Shown here piece by piece: positions 23,527 through 28,872 of a stretch of DNA of 36,313 nt (the first letter of the stretch is position 1; the number at the start of each line of letters is the position of its first letter). The position numbers and the translations under genes are program-made. The DNA is from an uncultured Lactobacillus sp. (GTDB taxonomy: Bacteria; Bacillota; Bacilli; Lactobacillales; Lactobacillaceae): positions 1 to 36,313 of the forward strand of contig CAMKZU010000016.1 of assembly GCA_946477855.1 (NCBI GenBank), written 5' to 3'. The notes under the pieces are model-generated. The model saw only the letters and a program-made list of their open reading frames with translations. It searched no databases and had not been told where the DNA came from.

Positions 23527-24237
23527 TTAACCACCAAAATAGACCTTCTGGACTTCCGGATTAGCTAATAGTTCTTTACCAGTGCCGCTTAATTGCACTA
23601 CTCCAGTTGCAAGCACATACCCGCGATCAGCAATTGATAATGCTTGTTTAGCATTTTGCTCAATCAATAAAATAGTCGTGCCCTTTTCATTCAATTCTTT
23701 AATGATTTTAAAAATTTCCTGGATATATAAAGGCGAAAGCCCCATTGAGGGTTCATCTAATAACAGCAATTTTGGTTTTGCCATTAAGGCACGACCCATT
23801 GCCAGCATTTGCTGCTCACCACCAGACAGTGTGGCGGCATCTTGGTGACGCCTTTTTTGCAAAATAGGGAATCGTTTGAAGATTTCCTGATAAGTCTTTG
23901 CAGTTTCTTCATGATTTTTTTGGAGAAAGGCTCCCATTTGCAGATTTTCCATTACTGTCATCCCTGCAAAAATATGTCTGCCTTCTGCAACTTGTGAAAT
24001 GCCGGCGCTGACGATTTGCGGGGCACTTTTATGTTCAATTTCTTTACCAAGATATAAAATCTGACCGCTCTTAGGCTTGAGCAATCCTGAAATTGTCTTG
24101 ACAATAGTTGATTTGCCGGCACCATTAGCTCCGATTAAAGTTACTATTTCACCTTGATTAATTTCAAAACTGACGTTTTTAACTGCTTGAATGACACCAT
24201 AGTTAACAGACAAATCTCGTACTTCTAACATAGCCAT
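23527..24237 (-). CDS. livF: Branched-chain amino acid ABC transporter ATPase LivF
   Basis: A 236-residue ABC ATPase. Walker A GANGAGKST, signature LSGGEQQML and Walker B LLLLDEPSMGLSP are complete. The pattern with VAEGRHIFAGMTVMENLQMGA is the LivF hallmark. With LivG it powers uptake of leucine, isoleucine and valine. Its ATG follows the livG stop directly. It is the last gene of the livJHMGF operon. Confidence 0.95.
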   Translation of the reverse strand: MAMLEVRDLSVNYGVIQAVKNVSFEINQGEIVTLIGANGAGKSTIVKTISGLLKPKSGQILYLGKEIEHKSAPQIVSAGISQVAEGRHIFAGMTVMENLQMGAFLQKNHEETAKTYQEIFKRFPILQKRRHQDAATLSGGEQQMLAMGRALMAKPKLLLLDEPSMGLSPLYIQEIFKIIKELNEKGTTILLIEQNAKQALSIADRGYVLATGVVQLSGTGKELLANPEVQKVYFGG

Positions 24238-25020
24238 CTAGTCTTCACCCTCTCCTAGATATGCTTCAATCACTTTAGGATTTGCTTTGACTTCTTCTGG
24301 ACTGCCAGTAGCAAGCATTTCTCCTTGATCTAGAACATAAATTCGTTCTGCTAAATTCATTACTAAAGACATGTCATGTTCTATTAGTAGAACGGTAATT
24401 TGAAATTCTTTTTGAATGTATTTGATAAGATTGGTTAAGTCAGCTGTTTCCTCGGGATTCATACCGGCAGCGGGTTCATCTAAGAAAAGAATTTGCGGTT
24501 GTGTAGCTAAAGCACGGACAATTTCTAACCGTCTTTGTGTACCATAGGGCAAGTTTTTGGCAAGAGTATTTTCGTTTTCAGTTAAATCAAAAATTTGCAG
24601 TAGTTTTTTTGCCGCTTCTTTCATGTCTTTCTCAGTTTTATAATAACGGGGCAAACGAAAGACAGTAGTTAAAAAGCCTTCTTGGTACTCATTGGTCATT
24701 GCAGTTAAAACGTTATCCATGACAGACAAGTTTTTAAATAACCGAATATTCTGAAAAGTTCTGGATAAGCCCAAGTCAGCAATTTGAACAGCACTTTTAT
24801 GGGTTAAGTCATAATTTTGATTATTAACTTGTAAATTGATTTTGCCGCTTGTTACCTGCACCATACCAGTTAACAAATTAAATAAAGTGGTCTTGCCCGC
24901 ACCATTAGGTCCAATCAAGGCAACTAGTTCATGCTTATCTAAATGAAGTGAAACGTCATTAACTGCAGTCAATCCGCCAAATTTGCGCACTACATGTTCA
25001 ACCTGTAATAAGTGTGCCAT
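24238..25020 (-). CDS. livG: Branched-chain amino acid ABC transporter ATPase LivG
   Basis: A 260-residue ABC ATPase with Walker A GPNGAGKTT, the degenerate signature LPYGTQRRLEI usual in LivG, and Walker B ILFLDEPAAGMNP. The LSRTFQNIRLFKNLSVMDNV segment is typical of the family. AAAGGGG precedes the ATG, and the gene begins three bases after the end of livM. Confidence 0.96.
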   Translation of the reverse strand: MAHLLQVEHVVRKFGGLTAVNDVSLHLDKHELVALIGPNGAGKTTLFNLLTGMVQVTSGKINLQVNNQNYDLTHKSAVQIADLGLSRTFQNIRLFKNLSVMDNVLTAMTNEYQEGFLTTVFRLPRYYKTEKDMKEAAKKLLQIFDLTENENTLAKNLPYGTQRRLEIVRALATQPQILFLDEPAAGMNPEETADLTNLIKYIQKEFQITVLLIEHDMSLVMNLAERIYVLDQGEMLATGSPEEVKANPKVIEAYLGEGED

Positions 25021-25023
25021 ATA

Positions 25024-25980
25024 CTAGCCCCTTTCCTTTTTGCCAAAATGGCGGGTTAAGTTTTTAAGTGAAAATTCCCAATTACCTAAAAGCCCAGATG
25101 GTTTGAAAATCATAATTAATATGAGGGCAATAGCATAGATAACCATTCTCAAAGAACCAAAGTTTTGTAAAACAGTATCTAAAACTCCCAGCACAGTTGC
25201 TGCTACAAATGTGCCTGTCATACTACCAACACCACCTAAAACAACTATAACTAAGATAGAAATTGATTCCATGATACCAAAGTTTGATGGTGAAATTGTT
25301 TGTAAATAAGAGGCATGTAAACTGCCGGCGATAGCAGCAGTAGCTGCGCCCAATACAAAAGCAGCTAATTTCCATTTAGTAGTATTAATGCCCATTGCTT
25401 CAGCGGCTATCTCATCTTCACGCACAGCCTTAATTGCACGCCCATTTTTGGAACGAATAAAATTCATCAAAATGATTGTAGTCACACAAACTAAGATATA
25501 AACGGTAGGCCAGGAACATAACTGGGGAATATTAAACATGCCGGCAGAGCCGCCCGTAATTTTCAAATTATTAATTACGTTGCGAATAATTTCAGCAGCC
25601 CCTAACGTGGCAATTGCCAGATAGTCGCCTTTCAAGCGAATAAATGTGGCTGTTCCAATCACACCCGCAATAATGACGGCTAAAAGCACACCTACTAGCA
25701 GTGAAAGCAAAAAACCAACTTCATTACTCATGTGTTGCGTAATGATTGCAGTAGCGTACGCACCAATTGCCATAAAACCGGCATGACCCAGTGAAAACTG
25801 ACCGCTAAAGCCGATAATCAGGTTCAAACCTGTTGCCAAAATAATATTAATGCCAATCGTAACCAGCATGTTTTCAATAAAATCATCAATTACGCCAACT
25901 ATGATTAAGGCGTTGATTAAGTAAAAGCCGGCTACCATAATTACGAGCCACGATAAAATGTATTTCCAATTAACCTTCAT
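25024..25980 (-). CDS. livM: Branched-chain amino acid ABC transporter permease LivM
   Basis: A 318-residue permease with about eight membrane helices. The family segments GLNLIIGFSGQFSLGHAGFM, LRLKGDYLAIATLG-like IRLKGDYLAIATLGAAEIIR and AIKAVREDEIAAEAMGIN (the ATPase-coupling loop) are all present. It pairs with LivH. The start ATG has AGGTGG upstream, and it is spaced eight bases from livH. Confidence 0.95.
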   Translation of the reverse strand: MKVNWKYILSWLVIMVAGFYLINALIIVGVIDDFIENMLVTIGINIILATGLNLIIGFSGQFSLGHAGFMAIGAYATAIITQHMSNEVGFLLSLLVGVLLAVIIAGVIGTATFIRLKGDYLAIATLGAAEIIRNVINNLKITGGSAGMFNIPQLCSWPTVYILVCVTTIILMNFIRSKNGRAIKAVREDEIAAEAMGINTTKWKLAAFVLGAATAAIAGSLHASYLQTISPSNFGIMESISILVIVVLGGVGSMTGTFVAATVLGVLDTVLQNFGSLRMVIYAIALILIMIFKPSGLLGNWEFSLKNLTRHFGKKERG

Positions 25981-25988
25981 TTTGCCAC

Positions 25989-26867
25989 CTATACCTTTTC
26001 CTTGGCATTTTTGCCGAAAATACCTGCTGGTAAAAAGAGCAAAATGACTATTAACACAAGATAAACTACTGCATCTTTATATGCGGACAAACCGATAGAT
26101 TGGAAGAAGGTTTCTAAAATACCGATTAAGAAGCCACCAAGTGAGGCACCGGGTACCGAACCAATTCCTCCTAAAACGGCTGCCACAAAGGCTTTAATGC
26201 CGGGAGTCATCCCCATTAAAGGATCAATTTGATTATAGTACATGCCAATCAGCACTCCTGCCGCACCAGCTAAAGCTGAACCCAAGGCAAAAGTAAAAGA
26301 AATCGTGTGATTAACATTAACCCCAACTAATTCGGCAGCAGCAGGATCAACAGATACAGCCCGCATTGCACGTCCCATCTTAGTTTTTTTAATAATCAGT
26401 TGCAGTGAAACCATTAGTATCAAAGCAGTTACTAAAATTAAAATTTGAATATTGGAAATTTGAACGCCGCCAAAAACATAGTTGACTTGTTCAATTACCT
26501 GCGGAAAACTACGTGCGTTTGAACCCACAAAGTAAGACATGCCATTTTCAAGTAAAAATGAAACTCCGATAGCTGTTATTAAGACAGCAATTCGCGGTGA
26601 TTTACGCAATGGTCTATAAGCAAAATACTCGATCACTACACCCGAAACCGCACCAACAATCATTGCTGAAAGTAATGCCGTGATGAAGTTAAAATGCCAA
26701 GCATTAATTACATAGTAGGCAAAGAATGCCCCCAGCATGTAGATATCGCCATGAGCAAAGTTAATTAAATTAATAATGCCGTAAACCATGCTATAGCCTA
26801 ATGCCAGCAAGGCATATATTGAGCCCAGTGACAAGGCATTAATGATTTGCTGTAATACTGTTTGCAA
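25989..26867 (-). CDS. livH: Branched-chain amino acid ABC transporter permease LivH (TTG start)
   Basis: A 292-residue permease beginning at TTG 26867, with AAAGGGG nine bases upstream. Typical LivH features are INALSLGSIYALLALGYSMV, GIINLINFAHGDIYMLGAF, the coupling loop GRAMRAVSVDPAAAELVGVN and AFVAAVLGGIGSVPGASLGG. It forms the membrane channel with LivM. No nearer ATG would keep the conserved N-terminus, which supports the TTG. Confidence 0.94.
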   Translation of the reverse strand: MQTVLQQIINALSLGSIYALLALGYSMVYGIINLINFAHGDIYMLGAFFAYYVINAWHFNFITALLSAMIVGAVSGVVIEYFAYRPLRKSPRIAVLITAIGVSFLLENGMSYFVGSNARSFPQVIEQVNYVFGGVQISNIQILILVTALILMVSLQLIIKKTKMGRAMRAVSVDPAAAELVGVNVNHTISFTFALGSALAGAAGVLIGMYYNQIDPLMGMTPGIKAFVAAVLGGIGSVPGASLGGFLIGILETFFQSIGLSAYKDAVVYLVLIVILLFLPAGIFGKNAKEKV

Positions 26868-26895: not shown

Positions 26896-28092
26896 CTATT
26901 CAACACTAAATGAATTACTTACTTTGCCATTAGTCATTTCTTCAATTGCAATTGGCATTTCTGGGTCATGAGTTTTATTAACTGTAATCTTACCGGTAAC
27001 CCCATCAAAATCTTTAATCTTAGCTAAGCCAGCAGCAACTTTAGTTGAATCATCTGATTTTTGTTGTTCAATGGCAGTCTTTACCATATAGACCGCATCA
27101 TAAGCTAAAGCTGAAAATGTTGGAGCCGGTGCATGATAACGAGCTTTAAAGGCATTCATAAACTTGACAGCTGTTGGATTTTTAGCAGCTACACGAGTGG
27201 AAAATGGCGTGGTGTAGTAAACCTTGGTAGCATTCTTAGCACCAGCAATTTGGGCAAGTTTAGGATCAGCCATACCGTCACTACCCACAATTGGCACTTT
27301 AATACCCATTTGCCGTGCCTGCTTAACAATCAGACCAACCTCTGTGTAATAGCCCGGAACATAAATAGCGTCAATCTTCTTTGCCTTAAATGAAGTTAAA
27401 ACGGCGTTAAAGTCCTTGTCACCTTCTGAATATGTTTGGCTATCAACTACTTTACCTTTATATGTATTCTTAAAGGCTTTTGCTAAACCAGTACCGTAAT
27501 CACTTGAATTATCAGCGTAAACGGCTACACGCTTTGCTTTCAGATTATTAGTGACAAACTTAGCGGCACTTTCTCCTTGGAAATTGTTTTGGAAACAAGC
27601 TCTAAAAACGTATGGTTGAACCTTGCCGTTTTTCTGTTTAGTGTAATCAGGATCAGTTGCAGAAGGACTCACGCTAGGAACTGCTGCTTTAGTAATGTTA
27701 GGAATTTCAGCTGTTCCCGCATTAGTAGTGGCCGGCCCAACAATTGCTGCCACCTTATCTTTATTTACCAGTTGTGCTGCTACCGAAGCAGAAGTAGCAA
27801 TCGCTGTTTTGTTATCGCGAATAATCAGCTTAATTTTCTTTTTATGACCGTTAACATCAATGCCGCCAGCCTTGTTAATTTCAGCTGCTGCTAGCTGAAT
27901 TCCCTGTTTCTGAGCATTTCCGTAACCTGCAGCCGTGCCAGATAATTCCATATTGACACCAATTTTGACAGTGTCTTTATCTTGATGAGTACCGCTACTG
28001 TTACTATTCTTGGCAACTGAACAGCCTGCCATCATAAAGGCGGCTGTTCCTACCGTTAGGATACCCATCATTTTTTTTGTAAACTTGTTCAT
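26896..28092 (-). CDS. livJ: Branched-chain amino acid-binding lipoprotein LivJ
   Basis: A lipoprotein of 398 residues from the second of two adjacent ATGs (28092; six bases from AAGGAG; 28095 is also possible). The signal peptide ends in the lipobox MAGC (Cys24). The mature part is a type I periplasmic-binding fold: VKIGVNMELSGTAAGYG, the IVGPATTNAG block, YADNSSDYGTGLAKAF and PIVGSDGMADPKL. It delivers branched-chain amino acids to LivHMGF. It is the first structural gene, 145 bases after the leader peptide stop; the attenuator terminator lies in between. Confidence 0.95.
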   Translation of the reverse strand: MNKFTKKMMGILTVGTAAFMMAGCSVAKNSNSSGTHQDKDTVKIGVNMELSGTAAGYGNAQKQGIQLAAAEINKAGGIDVNGHKKKIKLIIRDNKTAIATSASVAAQLVNKDKVAAIVGPATTNAGTAEIPNITKAAVPSVSPSATDPDYTKQKNGKVQPYVFRACFQNNFQGESAAKFVTNNLKAKRVAVYADNSSDYGTGLAKAFKNTYKGKVVDSQTYSEGDKDFNAVLTSFKAKKIDAIYVPGYYTEVGLIVKQARQMGIKVPIVGSDGMADPKLAQIAGAKNATKVYYTTPFSTRVAAKNPTAVKFMNAFKARYHAPAPTFSALAYDAVYMVKTAIEQQKSDDSTKVAAGLAKIKDFDGVTGKITVNKTHDPEMPIAIEEMTNGKVSNSFSVE

Positions 28093-28121
28093 CATTTTCT
28101 CCTTCTCTAACTAGCCTGGTA

Positions 28122-28152
28122 ACAAAAACCTCATTCAACTTAATGAATGAGG
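28122..28152 (-). terminator. Attenuator terminator of the liv operon
   Basis: On the minus strand, a nine-base stem (arms 28144-28152 and 28129-28137), six-base loop and TTTTTGTT lie before livJ and after the leader peptide. It is mutually exclusive with the antiterminator pairing 28139-28148 with 28179-28188. Confidence 0.85.
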
Positions 28153-28237
28153 CCCAAGATAGTTATTTGTTAAGCCCTATTCATTAAGACGCAAACAAGG
28201 GCTCAACATGTTAATTACTAAAAGTAATTCTTTCACG

Positions 28238-28327
28238 CTAAGTCCTACGCGACAACAACAAGGCAATCAAATTTTGAGAAATGCTGTTTCTAATGTTGAT
28301 TCGTTTACTTAAAAATTGATATTTCAT
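28238..28327 (-). CDS. liv leader peptide (29 aa, leucine cluster)
   Basis: ATG 28327 follows GGGGAGG by eight bases. The 29-codon frame begins MKYQFLSKRINIRNSISQN and continues with L-I-A-L-L-L-S-R-R-T and a TAG. Four of the five Leu codons at the end are TTG, three of them in a row, with an Ile and Ala between. This is the expected form of a control peptide whose translation senses charged leucyl-tRNA. It has no other likely function and lies between the liv promoter and the attenuator hairpins. Confidence 0.82.
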   Translation of the reverse strand: MKYQFLSKRINIRNSISQNLIALLLSRRT

Positions 28328-28364
28328 TAAAATTGCCTCCCCAAAATTTAATTTAATACTTAGG

Positions 28365-28393
28365 ATTATAAGTAAAGGTATGTGGCATGTCAA
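28365..28393 (-). promoter_or_regulatory. liv operon promoter
   Basis: Full consensus on the minus strand: TTGACA (28388-28393), 17-base spacer, TATAAT (28365-28370). A strong promoter suits control by attenuation downstream. Confidence 0.92.
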
Positions 28394-28509
28394 GTACAAT
28401 TAGTAATTATTTTGAACAAATTTCTAAGTTTTTTTTATTAATCCTGCTGGTAATAGGATTAGCAGCTGGCAAAATACTATTTGCACTTGCTCACAAATTA
28501 AACATGTGA
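28387..28509 (+). CDS. Possible small hydrophobic protein (40 aa)
   Basis: An open frame with ATG 28387 and AAAGG eight bases upstream encodes 40 residues. A polar start (MSSTISNYFEQISKF) is followed by one membrane helix (FLLILLVIGLAAGKILFALA) and a short basic end. It runs divergent from liv, and its start overlaps the liv -35. I see no good promoter for it. It might be a real small membrane protein, possibly expressed with the gene at 28558, or a chance frame. Without conservation data I give it low confidence. Confidence 0.3.
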   Translation: MSSTISNYFEQISKFFLLILLVIGLAAGKILFALAHKLNM

Positions 28510-28557
28510 TCTTATGAACTTTATGGTAAAATAAAGTTGTTGAGAAGGAGGCATAAT

Positions 28558-28872
28558 ATGTTTGCTACAGTTTTTTACTGGATTATAATTGCTGCTACCG
28601 GTCTTTGGGGAATATGGTCAGCAGCCTGGTCGATGATATATGTTGCTAAACATGAAAACGGCAACTTATGGATTTTTGCAATAATTAATGTTTTGATTTT
28701 AGCTTTATTAGGTCTGGCTGATTTGATCTATAGCACTGAAGGCAATCAGTGGTATTGGTTTTCTTCCACTAGGGCAGACATTAGCCTTTTAGTATATATG
28801 CTTTTTGCCTACTGCGCTTTGGTAGTTTTGCAAGTATTGTTTGGCATTACACGTAAGCCTAAAAAAGCTTAA
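28558..28872 (+). CDS. Small integral membrane protein of unknown function
   Basis: AAGGAGG (28545-28551) sets the start at ATG 28558, giving 104 residues; the frame upstream to 28537 is not used. About three membrane helices are visible (FATVFYWIIIAATGLWGIWS, LWIFAIINVLILALLGLADL, and a third near the C-terminus), ending in a basic KPKKA tail. I do not recognise the family. It stands alone between the liv operon and the electron-transfer locus, and the terminator at 28923 follows. Confidence 0.75.
   Translation: MFATVFYWIIIAATGLWGIWSAAWSMIYVAKHENGNLWIFAIINVLILALLGLADLIYSTEGNQWYWFSSTRADISLLVYMLFAYCALVVLQVLFGITRKPKKA

Follow-up and report, generated by a model that had tools for sequence, protein, structure and literature searches.

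A conserved putative leucine attenuator ahead of the livJHMGF operon in Lactobacillaceae and its predicted three-rival wiring

Amino-acid genes of Firmicutes are commonly said to be under T-box control, and the livJHMGF locus of an uncultured Lactobacillus sp. (contig CAMKZU010000016.1, assembly GCA_946477855.1) raises the question of what kind of leader controls branched-chain amino acid uptake in this organism. The window, that is, the whole stretch of DNA that was analysed (36,313 nt), gave no match to the T-box model RF00230 at the gathering cut-off, and none lay over the leader at E values up to 10, in agreement with a sequence-only reading that had noted the lack of a T-box and proposed a leucine leader-peptide attenuator ahead of the operon. 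This core proposal is well supported by comparison with related sequences. Judged from sequence and folding models, the element is probably a ribosome-mediated transcription attenuator of livJHMGF, with charged leucyl-tRNA as the signal that it senses. It is located on the minus strand 5' of the operon, its whole layout running downward from position 28393, and the locus contains the following parts:

28365..28393, minus strand: sigma-70 type promoter, TTGACA-17-TATAAT, agreeing with the consensus at 12 of 12 positions
28336..28342, minus strand: Shine-Dalgarno sequence GGGGAGG of the leader open reading frame (ORF), seen in the sequence 8 nt 5' of the ATG
28238..28327, minus strand: leader ORF of 29 codons with an ATG start, MKYQFLSKRINIRNSISQNLIALLLSRRT followed by a stop, its C-terminal part kept in relatives
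26896..28095, minus strand: livJ, branched-chain amino acid binding protein (Peripla_BP_6, E 4.7e-57)
25989..26867, minus strand: livH, permease (BPD_transp_2)
25024..25980, minus strand: livM, permease (BPD_transp_2)
24238..25020, minus strand: livG, ATPase (ABC_tran and BCA_ABC_TP_C)
23527..24237, minus strand: livF, ATPase (ABC_tran)

The consensus promoter and the 29-codon frame with an L-I-A-L-L-L cluster (28327-28238), both pointed out in the sequence-only reading, are found on this strand as described; the frame ends QNLIALLLSRRT, and weaker promoter-like sites in the same stretch occur at chance level (3 versus 2.9 expected). Pfam identifies the operon as livJHMGF, with livJ starting 25 nt beyond the T tract of the leader. 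On the opposite strand, a 40-codon hydrophobic frame (28387-28509, plus strand) overlaps the promoter and is followed by a 111-codon frame (28537-28872, plus strand) without a Pfam match. No leuA was found in the organism's own genome, in a search that had no positive control and covered an assembly 67% complete. The RNA of the leader can be divided into the following segments:

28253..28264, minus strand: segment 0, GCC and the Leu codons TTG TTG TTG, the control codons, which can pair with D and were examined by codon and partner-swap tests in relatives
28234..28246, minus strand: segment A, AGGACUUAGCGUG, overlapping the last codons and stop of the ORF, which pairs with B
28213..28229, minus strand: small hairpin AAUUACU-UUU-AGUAAUU inside the A:B loop, seen in folds and unevenly conserved
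28198..28210, minus strand: segment B, CAUGUUGAGCCCU, which pairs with A or D
28179..28188, minus strand: segment C, CUUAAUGAAU, the 5' part of the antiterminator arm and an exact 10-base complement of part of E
28169..28178, minus strand: segment D, AGGGCUUAAC, which pairs with 0, with B or (together with C) with E
28139..28153, minus strand: segment E, GCCUCAUUCAUUAAG, the 5' arm of the terminator and partner of C-D
28129..28138, minus strand: segment F, UUGAAUGAGG, the 3' arm of the terminator
28121..28128, minus strand: T tract, UUUUUGUU, seen in the sequence

The leader contains the hairpin GUUGAGCCC/GGGCUUAAC, an exact 10-base antiterminator pairing of CUUAAUGAAU (28188-28179) with AUUCAUUAAG, and a 9-bp terminator stem, CCUCAUUCA/UGAAUGAGG, followed by UUUUUGUU. 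These elements match the protector hairpin (B:D), antiterminator (C with E) and nine-base terminator with T tract before livJ (E:F) that had been read from the sequence, although a pattern scanner called no terminator in this stretch, where stem and T tract are plain in sequence and folds. Two pairings were absent from that reading, namely A:B, in which the end of the ORF pairs with the 5' arm of the hairpin at 12 of 13 positions, and 0:D, in which GCCUUGUU in the Leu codons pairs with AAUAGGGC in C-D (duplex -10.5 kcal/mol). The 265-nt leader folds 4.9 standard deviations better than its dinucleotide shuffles, with none of 200 as good. By eye, a UAGGAC/GUCUUA pairing of A with the B:D loop was noticed as well. 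Two attributes of an attenuator are found here: comparison and folding make terminator and antiterminator mutually exclusive, and a short ORF of predicted translation with a run of control codons lies 5' of the operon. The classical attenuation that had been proposed stands as regards the mutually exclusive structures but not as a plain four-segment layout, since B also pairs with A and D also pairs with the Leu codons.

In the genus, livJ is present in 27 of 75 genomes, and 15 further loci come from named or MAG records of Lactobacillus, Levilactobacillus, Pediococcus stilesii and one remote MAG (L046, 26% identity), the nearest relative among these being L. helsingborgensis Bma5 (99%). Alignment A1 holds 22 distinct Lactobacillus leaders and alignment A2 holds 27, with other genera added; the remote L046, exact duplicates (33 reduced to 27) and five loci with another leader (L024-L028) were omitted from both. 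Within A1, the OFF pairs (B:D and E:F, hence the hairpin and terminator) are formed in 98.2% of cells, against at most 54.9% in slid versions, and the ON pairs (A:B and D:E) in 89.5%, against at most 49.5%. Covariation scores in A1 are 0.113 versus 0.094 in shuffles for ON pairs and 0.125 versus 0.089 for OFF pairs, none of 500 shuffles being as high in either case; the number of pairs changed on both sides is unexceptional, 51 and 40 of 500 shuffles having as many. Counting against the model, 19 of the 22 leaders share an A-C mismatch in A:B. RNAalifold by itself gives the hairpin and the terminator. It is scarcely conceivable that the locus merely combines a constitutive promoter and terminator with a chance ORF, an idea in favour of which stands the general frequency of short ORFs, and against which stand conservation across genera and the co-variation of mutually exclusive helices.

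The Leu codons and hairpins, whose loss in close relatives was to count against the sequence-only reading, are mostly kept, but L024-L028 have another leader and further exceptions occur. These five Lactobacillus genomes belong to a livJ clade of 52-53% identity and carry a different sequence 5' of livJ, for example MKCQMCQQMNNAMLFSAAVITLLQVM; the leader of L028 is without the Leu pair. Single-sequence folds of their GAGCUC arms suggest a similar wiring in unrelated sequence, and the likeness is possibly convergent.

A covariance model (R1) built from the A2 relatives, with matches counted at E values up to 0.01, detects the element in 24 of 75 genomes of the genus and in 98 of 397 Lactobacillaceae genomes from 17 of 40 genera, the matches in A2 genera being partly by construction. 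At this frequency the leader is not the unusual case in its group that it had been taken for. Among 113 R1 loci that were opened, 112 are followed by a frame of 100 codons or more, and the next gene is livJ-like in 93, leuA-like in 10, OppA-like in 6, leuB-like in 2 and unrelated in 1; one representative of each downstream-gene group was checked by Pfam, and the leuA and leuB calls derive from HMGL-like and Iso_dh matches. One locus (L167), PhzF-like by eye and without the leader, is taken as a false match. The opened family loci leave out 32 weaker R1 matches (E 3.5e-5 to 0.0095) and the second copies in G030 and G038, which are genus matches, while G077, a weaker unopened R1 match, came back through a second model, R2, as L183 and appears leuA-like by eye. 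In eight genomes (G019, G025, G028, G030, G031, G033, G038 and G065), two livJ genes lie about 5 kb apart, each with its own leader copy. Six Lactobacillus genomes have leader copies 5' of an OppA-like gene (L111-L116), of which L115 and L116 are in genomes without a livJ match; from these copies, the scaffold seems to move between operons.

In 107 of the 113 opened loci, an ATG frame contains two or more Leu codons in a row, which corresponds to 97 distinct predicted peptides; L068, L077, L112, L153, L154 and L167, which have no usable Leu-run leader, stand outside the spacing count. Across the 97 peptides, the distance from the end of the Leu run to A (the AGGAC segment) is 7 nt in 57, 6 in 33, 5 in 4 and 4 in 3, whereas the position of the stop codon varies between 6 nt upstream and 29 nt downstream of the start of A; leuA-type leaders stop directly after the run, and in many liv-type leaders the frame continues well beyond the start of A. 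The near-constant spacing together with the floating stop indicates that selection keeps the Leu-to-A distance and not the stop position, and since AGGAC falls in different reading frames in different genera, the constraint acts on the RNA. L068, L077 and L112 have an interrupted run, and that of L070, L073 and L117 comprises only two codons. In a distant set of 22 leaders (three of them from Lactobacillaceae), 18 have a spacing of 6-7 nt and 4 one of 2-5 nt, L185 being entered with an over-long frame and its alternative Ile-rich frame left aside. Comparison and computation establish the ORF, the Leu run, the fixed Leu-to-A spacing and the co-variation of pairings. The usual footprint of a ribosome reaches about 12-13 nt past the first base of the A site, so that a ribosome at the first Leu codon would leave A free and one a few codons further on would cover it.

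Codon choice in and before the run bears on pairing 0:D. In 86 leaders with residues after the run, the codon preceding it is GCC in 66 of 66 cases of Ala (28% of Ala codons in the following genes), GTC in 14 of 14 cases of Val (24%) and ACC in 3 of 3 cases of Thr (31%), and the 11 leaders without residues after the run show GCC in 9 of 9 and GTC in 2 of 2. When synonymous versions of a 15-nt stretch were drawn with weights from the next gene's codon usage, D not being aligned to 0, the native Leu-region codons paired with their own D better than the median draw in 35 of 37 representatives (82 of all 86) and ranked in the best quarter in 28 of 37 (64 of 86).

Partner-swap tests compare the energies of own pairs with those of permuted partners across clusters below 80% identity, using 2000 permutations; the statistics take clusters as independent, kinship between clusters not being in the model. 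With 43 clusters, permutations as good as the native pairing numbered 6 for A:B and 0 each for B:D, CD:E and E:F, and the remaining combinations were not supported (A:E 195, B:E 1041, 0:B 1708, A:F 1314). A pairing of segment 0 with A was rejected (1459 of 2000 as good), and 0:D, first tested with shorter segments in the same clusters, failed (396 of 2000). When the whole Leu-codon stretch was used together with a longer D arm, in 39 clusters, 0:D and a re-anchored A:B each gave 0 of 2000, against 634 to 980 for control pairs; because the longer segments were chosen after the folds had been seen, this success of 0:D is not blind. The own pair exceeds the row mean in 19 of 39 clusters for 0:D and 18 of 39 for A:B, and own A:B exceeds the cross mean in 26 of 43, so that the signal is carried by part of the clusters. 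Five pairings that compete with one another (0:D, A:B, B:D, D:E and E:F) find support when the partner-swap and synonymous-codon tests are taken together with the folding.

These data make it unlikely that the leader is a plain trp-like attenuator, in which only B:D, C/D:E and E:F would matter, the ribosome would disturb B:D, and A:B and 0:D would be incidental. It is true that B:D, D:E and E:F have the strongest support and that the published model of Listeria Rli60 has four segments (PMC5864092). However, B starts 42 nt beyond the Leu run of the own leader, out of reach of a stalled ribosome; A:B and 0:D pass the partner-swap and codon tests, the segments for 0:D having been chosen once the folds had been seen; and the Leu-to-A distance hardly varies, in contrast to the stop position. 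Very unlikely is a nascent-chain arrest peptide that would sense leucine or another ligand in the exit tunnel instead of tRNA charging. Residues before the Leu run do show some conservation while their codons vary (Q at -4 in 55 of 86 leaders, N or D at -3 in 53 of 86), but no other part is as constant as the Leu codons (present at the last two positions in 86 of 86, a figure that follows from how the runs were selected), distant relatives carry Ile or mixed Ile/Leu/Val runs, with 18 of 22 at 6-7 nt from A, and leuA-type leaders end directly after the run.

In the preferred three-rival reading, segment D would be held by one of three partners, the Leu-codon stretch (0), B or E. With no ribosome on the ORF, 0:D and A:B would form, E would be free and the terminator E:F would arise (OFF). 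When leucine is short, a ribosome would wait at the first Leu codon, covering 0 and leaving A free, since A starts 15-16 nt downstream of that codon for a run of three; A:B would then hold B, D would pair with E, and the terminator would be blocked (ON). When leucine is plentiful, the ribosome would run over A and release B, B would take D, and E:F would form (OFF). In such a scheme, covering A hands D to B, so that A/B would report the passage of the ribosome to D, which lies some 75 nt downstream of the Leu run. For translation, stalling, the direction of the response and termination efficiency, we infer this course from the sequence and models. Proteobacterial trp, leu, his and phe attenuators are ON only when the ribosome stalls at the control codons, and the ON logic proposed here is the same; unlike them, the present leader would have an extra A/B relay and an arm D that pairs with the control codons, far beyond the ORF.

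Ensemble folding was carried out, like the codon tests, on 86 of 94 aligned leaders; L150, L155 and L164, in which A was wrongly anchored, are among those set aside. Before F is made, the mean expected pairs over the 86 leaders are 8.7 for A:B and 5.0 for D:E without a ribosome, 7.6 and 9.3, respectively, with a ribosome at the first Leu codon, and 6.9 for B:D and 3.6 for D:E with a ribosome on A. Once F is made, E:F reaches 8.3 without a ribosome, 7.4 with one at the first Leu codon and 9.2 with one on A. Before F, freeing A raises D:E relative to the covered state at 73 of 86 loci and lowers it at 1; among 37 representatives D:E is higher in 28, lower in 0 and without a rise in 9. Covering A changes D:E little in L055, L070, L072, L073, L074, L097, L117, L161 and L163, and D:E is near zero in both A states in L108, L123, L129 and L168. 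Without a ribosome, 0:D averages 8.8 pairs and amounts to at least 4 in 65 of 86 leaders; L055, L072, L074, L147 and L169 are predicted to escape termination in this fold (E:F 1.1 or less).

The own leader at full length gives 13.8 expected pairs of D:E and 0.1 of E:F with a ribosome at the first Leu codon, and 9.6 of B:D and 8.9 of E:F with a ribosome on A, so that in these models it is a clean switch at full length. With no ribosome, it gives E:F 8.3, A:B 4.3 and only 2.8 expected 0:D pairs, and at the stage before F with A covered, D:E still amounts to 9.9 pairs. The full-length leaders of relatives at equilibrium mostly adopt B:D and E:F even with A free, from which it follows that their ON state must be kinetic, through trapping. 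An earlier idea that the lack of a ribosome leads to constitutive read-through (a parity opposite to trp) was dropped because the no-ribosome ensembles show D held by the Leu codons and because published rli60 mutants of the Shine-Dalgarno sequence and ATG are low.

A stretch of the leader at 28190-28201 (minus strand), CCCUUGUUUGCG, running from the end of B into the B-D loop, is strongly conserved beyond the need of the named pairings, and CCU..UUU.C within it is invariant in 27 aligned leaders. This loop, lying outside the named pairings, is what a leucine-binding riboswitch or a protein-bound leader with an incidental ORF would have in its favour. Such an arrangement is nonetheless highly improbable, given that no riboswitch or leader family lies over the leader in 15 relatives at E values up to 1 and that both the Leu run and its spacing are clearly constrained; chance-level Rfam overlaps in these 15 relatives (Spot_42, E 0.49; ctRNA, E 0.89) are far below cut-off.

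Among catalogued systems, the leu-phe leader RF01743 had been considered as a possible home for the element, a membership that finds no support: the cut-off of 70 bits is reached in 0 of 14 element-bearing genomes, the leader itself has no match at E values up to 10, and three weak matches in the 14 genomes (best E 0.009) are all away from the element. This class is a Lactococcus lactis leader named for Leu and Phe (PMC2864571). The likeness is that of a leader class from a lactic acid bacterium; the difference is that no match over the cut-off occurs here. The own genome contains 13 T-box matches at E values up to 0.001, 4 of them over the cut-off, and eight (L047-L054) precede, by eye, leuS, brnQ, valS, pheS, asnA, argS, serS and metQ. 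With T-boxes at leuS, brnQ and valS, branched-chain amino acids (BCAAs) seem to be sensed by two RNA mechanisms per cell; a T-box likewise reads tRNA charging, whereas the sensor here is predicted to be a translated ORF. Control by CodY was rejected, as no CodY was found in 75 genomes of the genus, with B. subtilis and L. lactis controls positive and the own assembly 67% complete.

By sequence comparison, the nearest relatives of the element appear to be rli60 and rli60-like ilvD leaders. Model R2 matches 30 of 395 genomes of the order at E values up to 0.001, 13 of the 30 outside the family, and 7 of 299 genomes of the class at the same threshold, namely the own genome and six in one genus, of which 27 of 81 genomes match at E values up to 0.05. 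This genus is probably Staphylococcus, judged from its ilvD leaders and rli60 matches; among 28 loci listed from it, L224 is without a leader and L225 without such motifs. Distant leaders carry Ile, Leu or Val runs and precede ilvD, Peripla_BP_6, PTS_EIIC_2, SBF, CstA, SBP_bac_3 and BPD_transp_1_N genes. In one genus of the order, related leaders rich in Leu, Ile and Val (L187, L188, L191 and L196) lie 5' of a PTS_EIIC_2-type gene, a call based on a Pfam check of L187.

The rli60 model RF02414 (cut-off 60 bits) has no match in 75 Lactobacillus genomes and none over the leader at E values up to 10. Three ilvD leaders reached through R2 and confirmed by Pfam as preceding ilvD (L198, L201 and L222) score 111.4, 95.7 and 66.4 bits against it and carry AGGAC, AAGUCCU and AAUGGGAC arms; in the ilvD leaders L198-L203 the motifs are present with a spacing of 4-7 nt, the Listeria sequence itself being outside the comparison. 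As these three Staphylococcus-like leaders pass the cut-off, the rli60 family is wider than its Listeria name and the class is tied to experimentally studied attenuators. The present leader resembles rli60 in its BCAA leader peptide and the attenuation of a BCAA operon; it differs in that the published rli60 model has four segments and concerns biosynthesis, not uptake. According to the Listeria study, Rli60 mutants of the Shine-Dalgarno sequence and ATG have lower ilvD transcription under low BCAA, and a terminator mutant shows high levels when the medium contains more BCAA (PMC5864092); the low SD and ATG mutants are as the no-ribosome state of the present model predicts.

A S. aureus study describes a leucine-rich attenuator peptide at ilvD, with a Leu/Ile leader, attenuation and no T-box, and mutants selected without Val, namely a Leu-to-stop change (+153), changes at +203 and +205, and a terminator deletion (PMC5794164). 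The antiterminator published there pairs GAAUGG with the poly-U tail, in contrast to D with the 5' terminator arm here. In the Staphylococcus-like leaders, the U of AAGUCC in B follows the Leu codons of the main run at a distance of 49-62 nt, and +203 and +205 plausibly hit segment B, a placement by spacing only, since in that study they lie 50 and 52 nt beyond the mutated Leu codon. In the open-access literature searched, no publication on a Lactobacillaceae liv leader was found.

On the evidence of sequence and models, the element appears to be a real, conserved leucine attenuator, known in kind, and what is new would be the class and its three-rival wiring. The joint reading is evenly balanced between holding and failing: an uncatalogued family-wide attenuator class in which arm D would have three rivals (0, the relay arm B and the terminator arm E), the gene being on only with a ribosome exactly on the control codons; the A/B relay would carry the passage signal far downstream, the scaffold would have come to serve liv, opp, leuA and leuB as well as, in relatives, ilvD and further transporters, Ile or Val replacing Leu while the spacing stays almost the same; rli60 and the staphylococcal ilvD leaders would share this wiring.

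According to a survey of cis-regulatory RNAs, the origin of amino-acid attenuators may lie in the gamma-proteobacteria, with very few transfers since (PMC3766115). The leader-peptide class described here goes without Rfam recognition in the scanned Lactobacillaceae loci and yet occurs in 98 of 397 genomes of the family, where one scaffold serves leucine uptake, peptide uptake and leucine synthesis. The switch seems to turn genes on only with a leucine-short ribosome parked on the leucine codons. If the wiring holds, it would constitute a testable ribosome-position gate, offer a reading of the mutants reported from Listeria and S. aureus, and could be put to use for sensing leucine in food bacteria.
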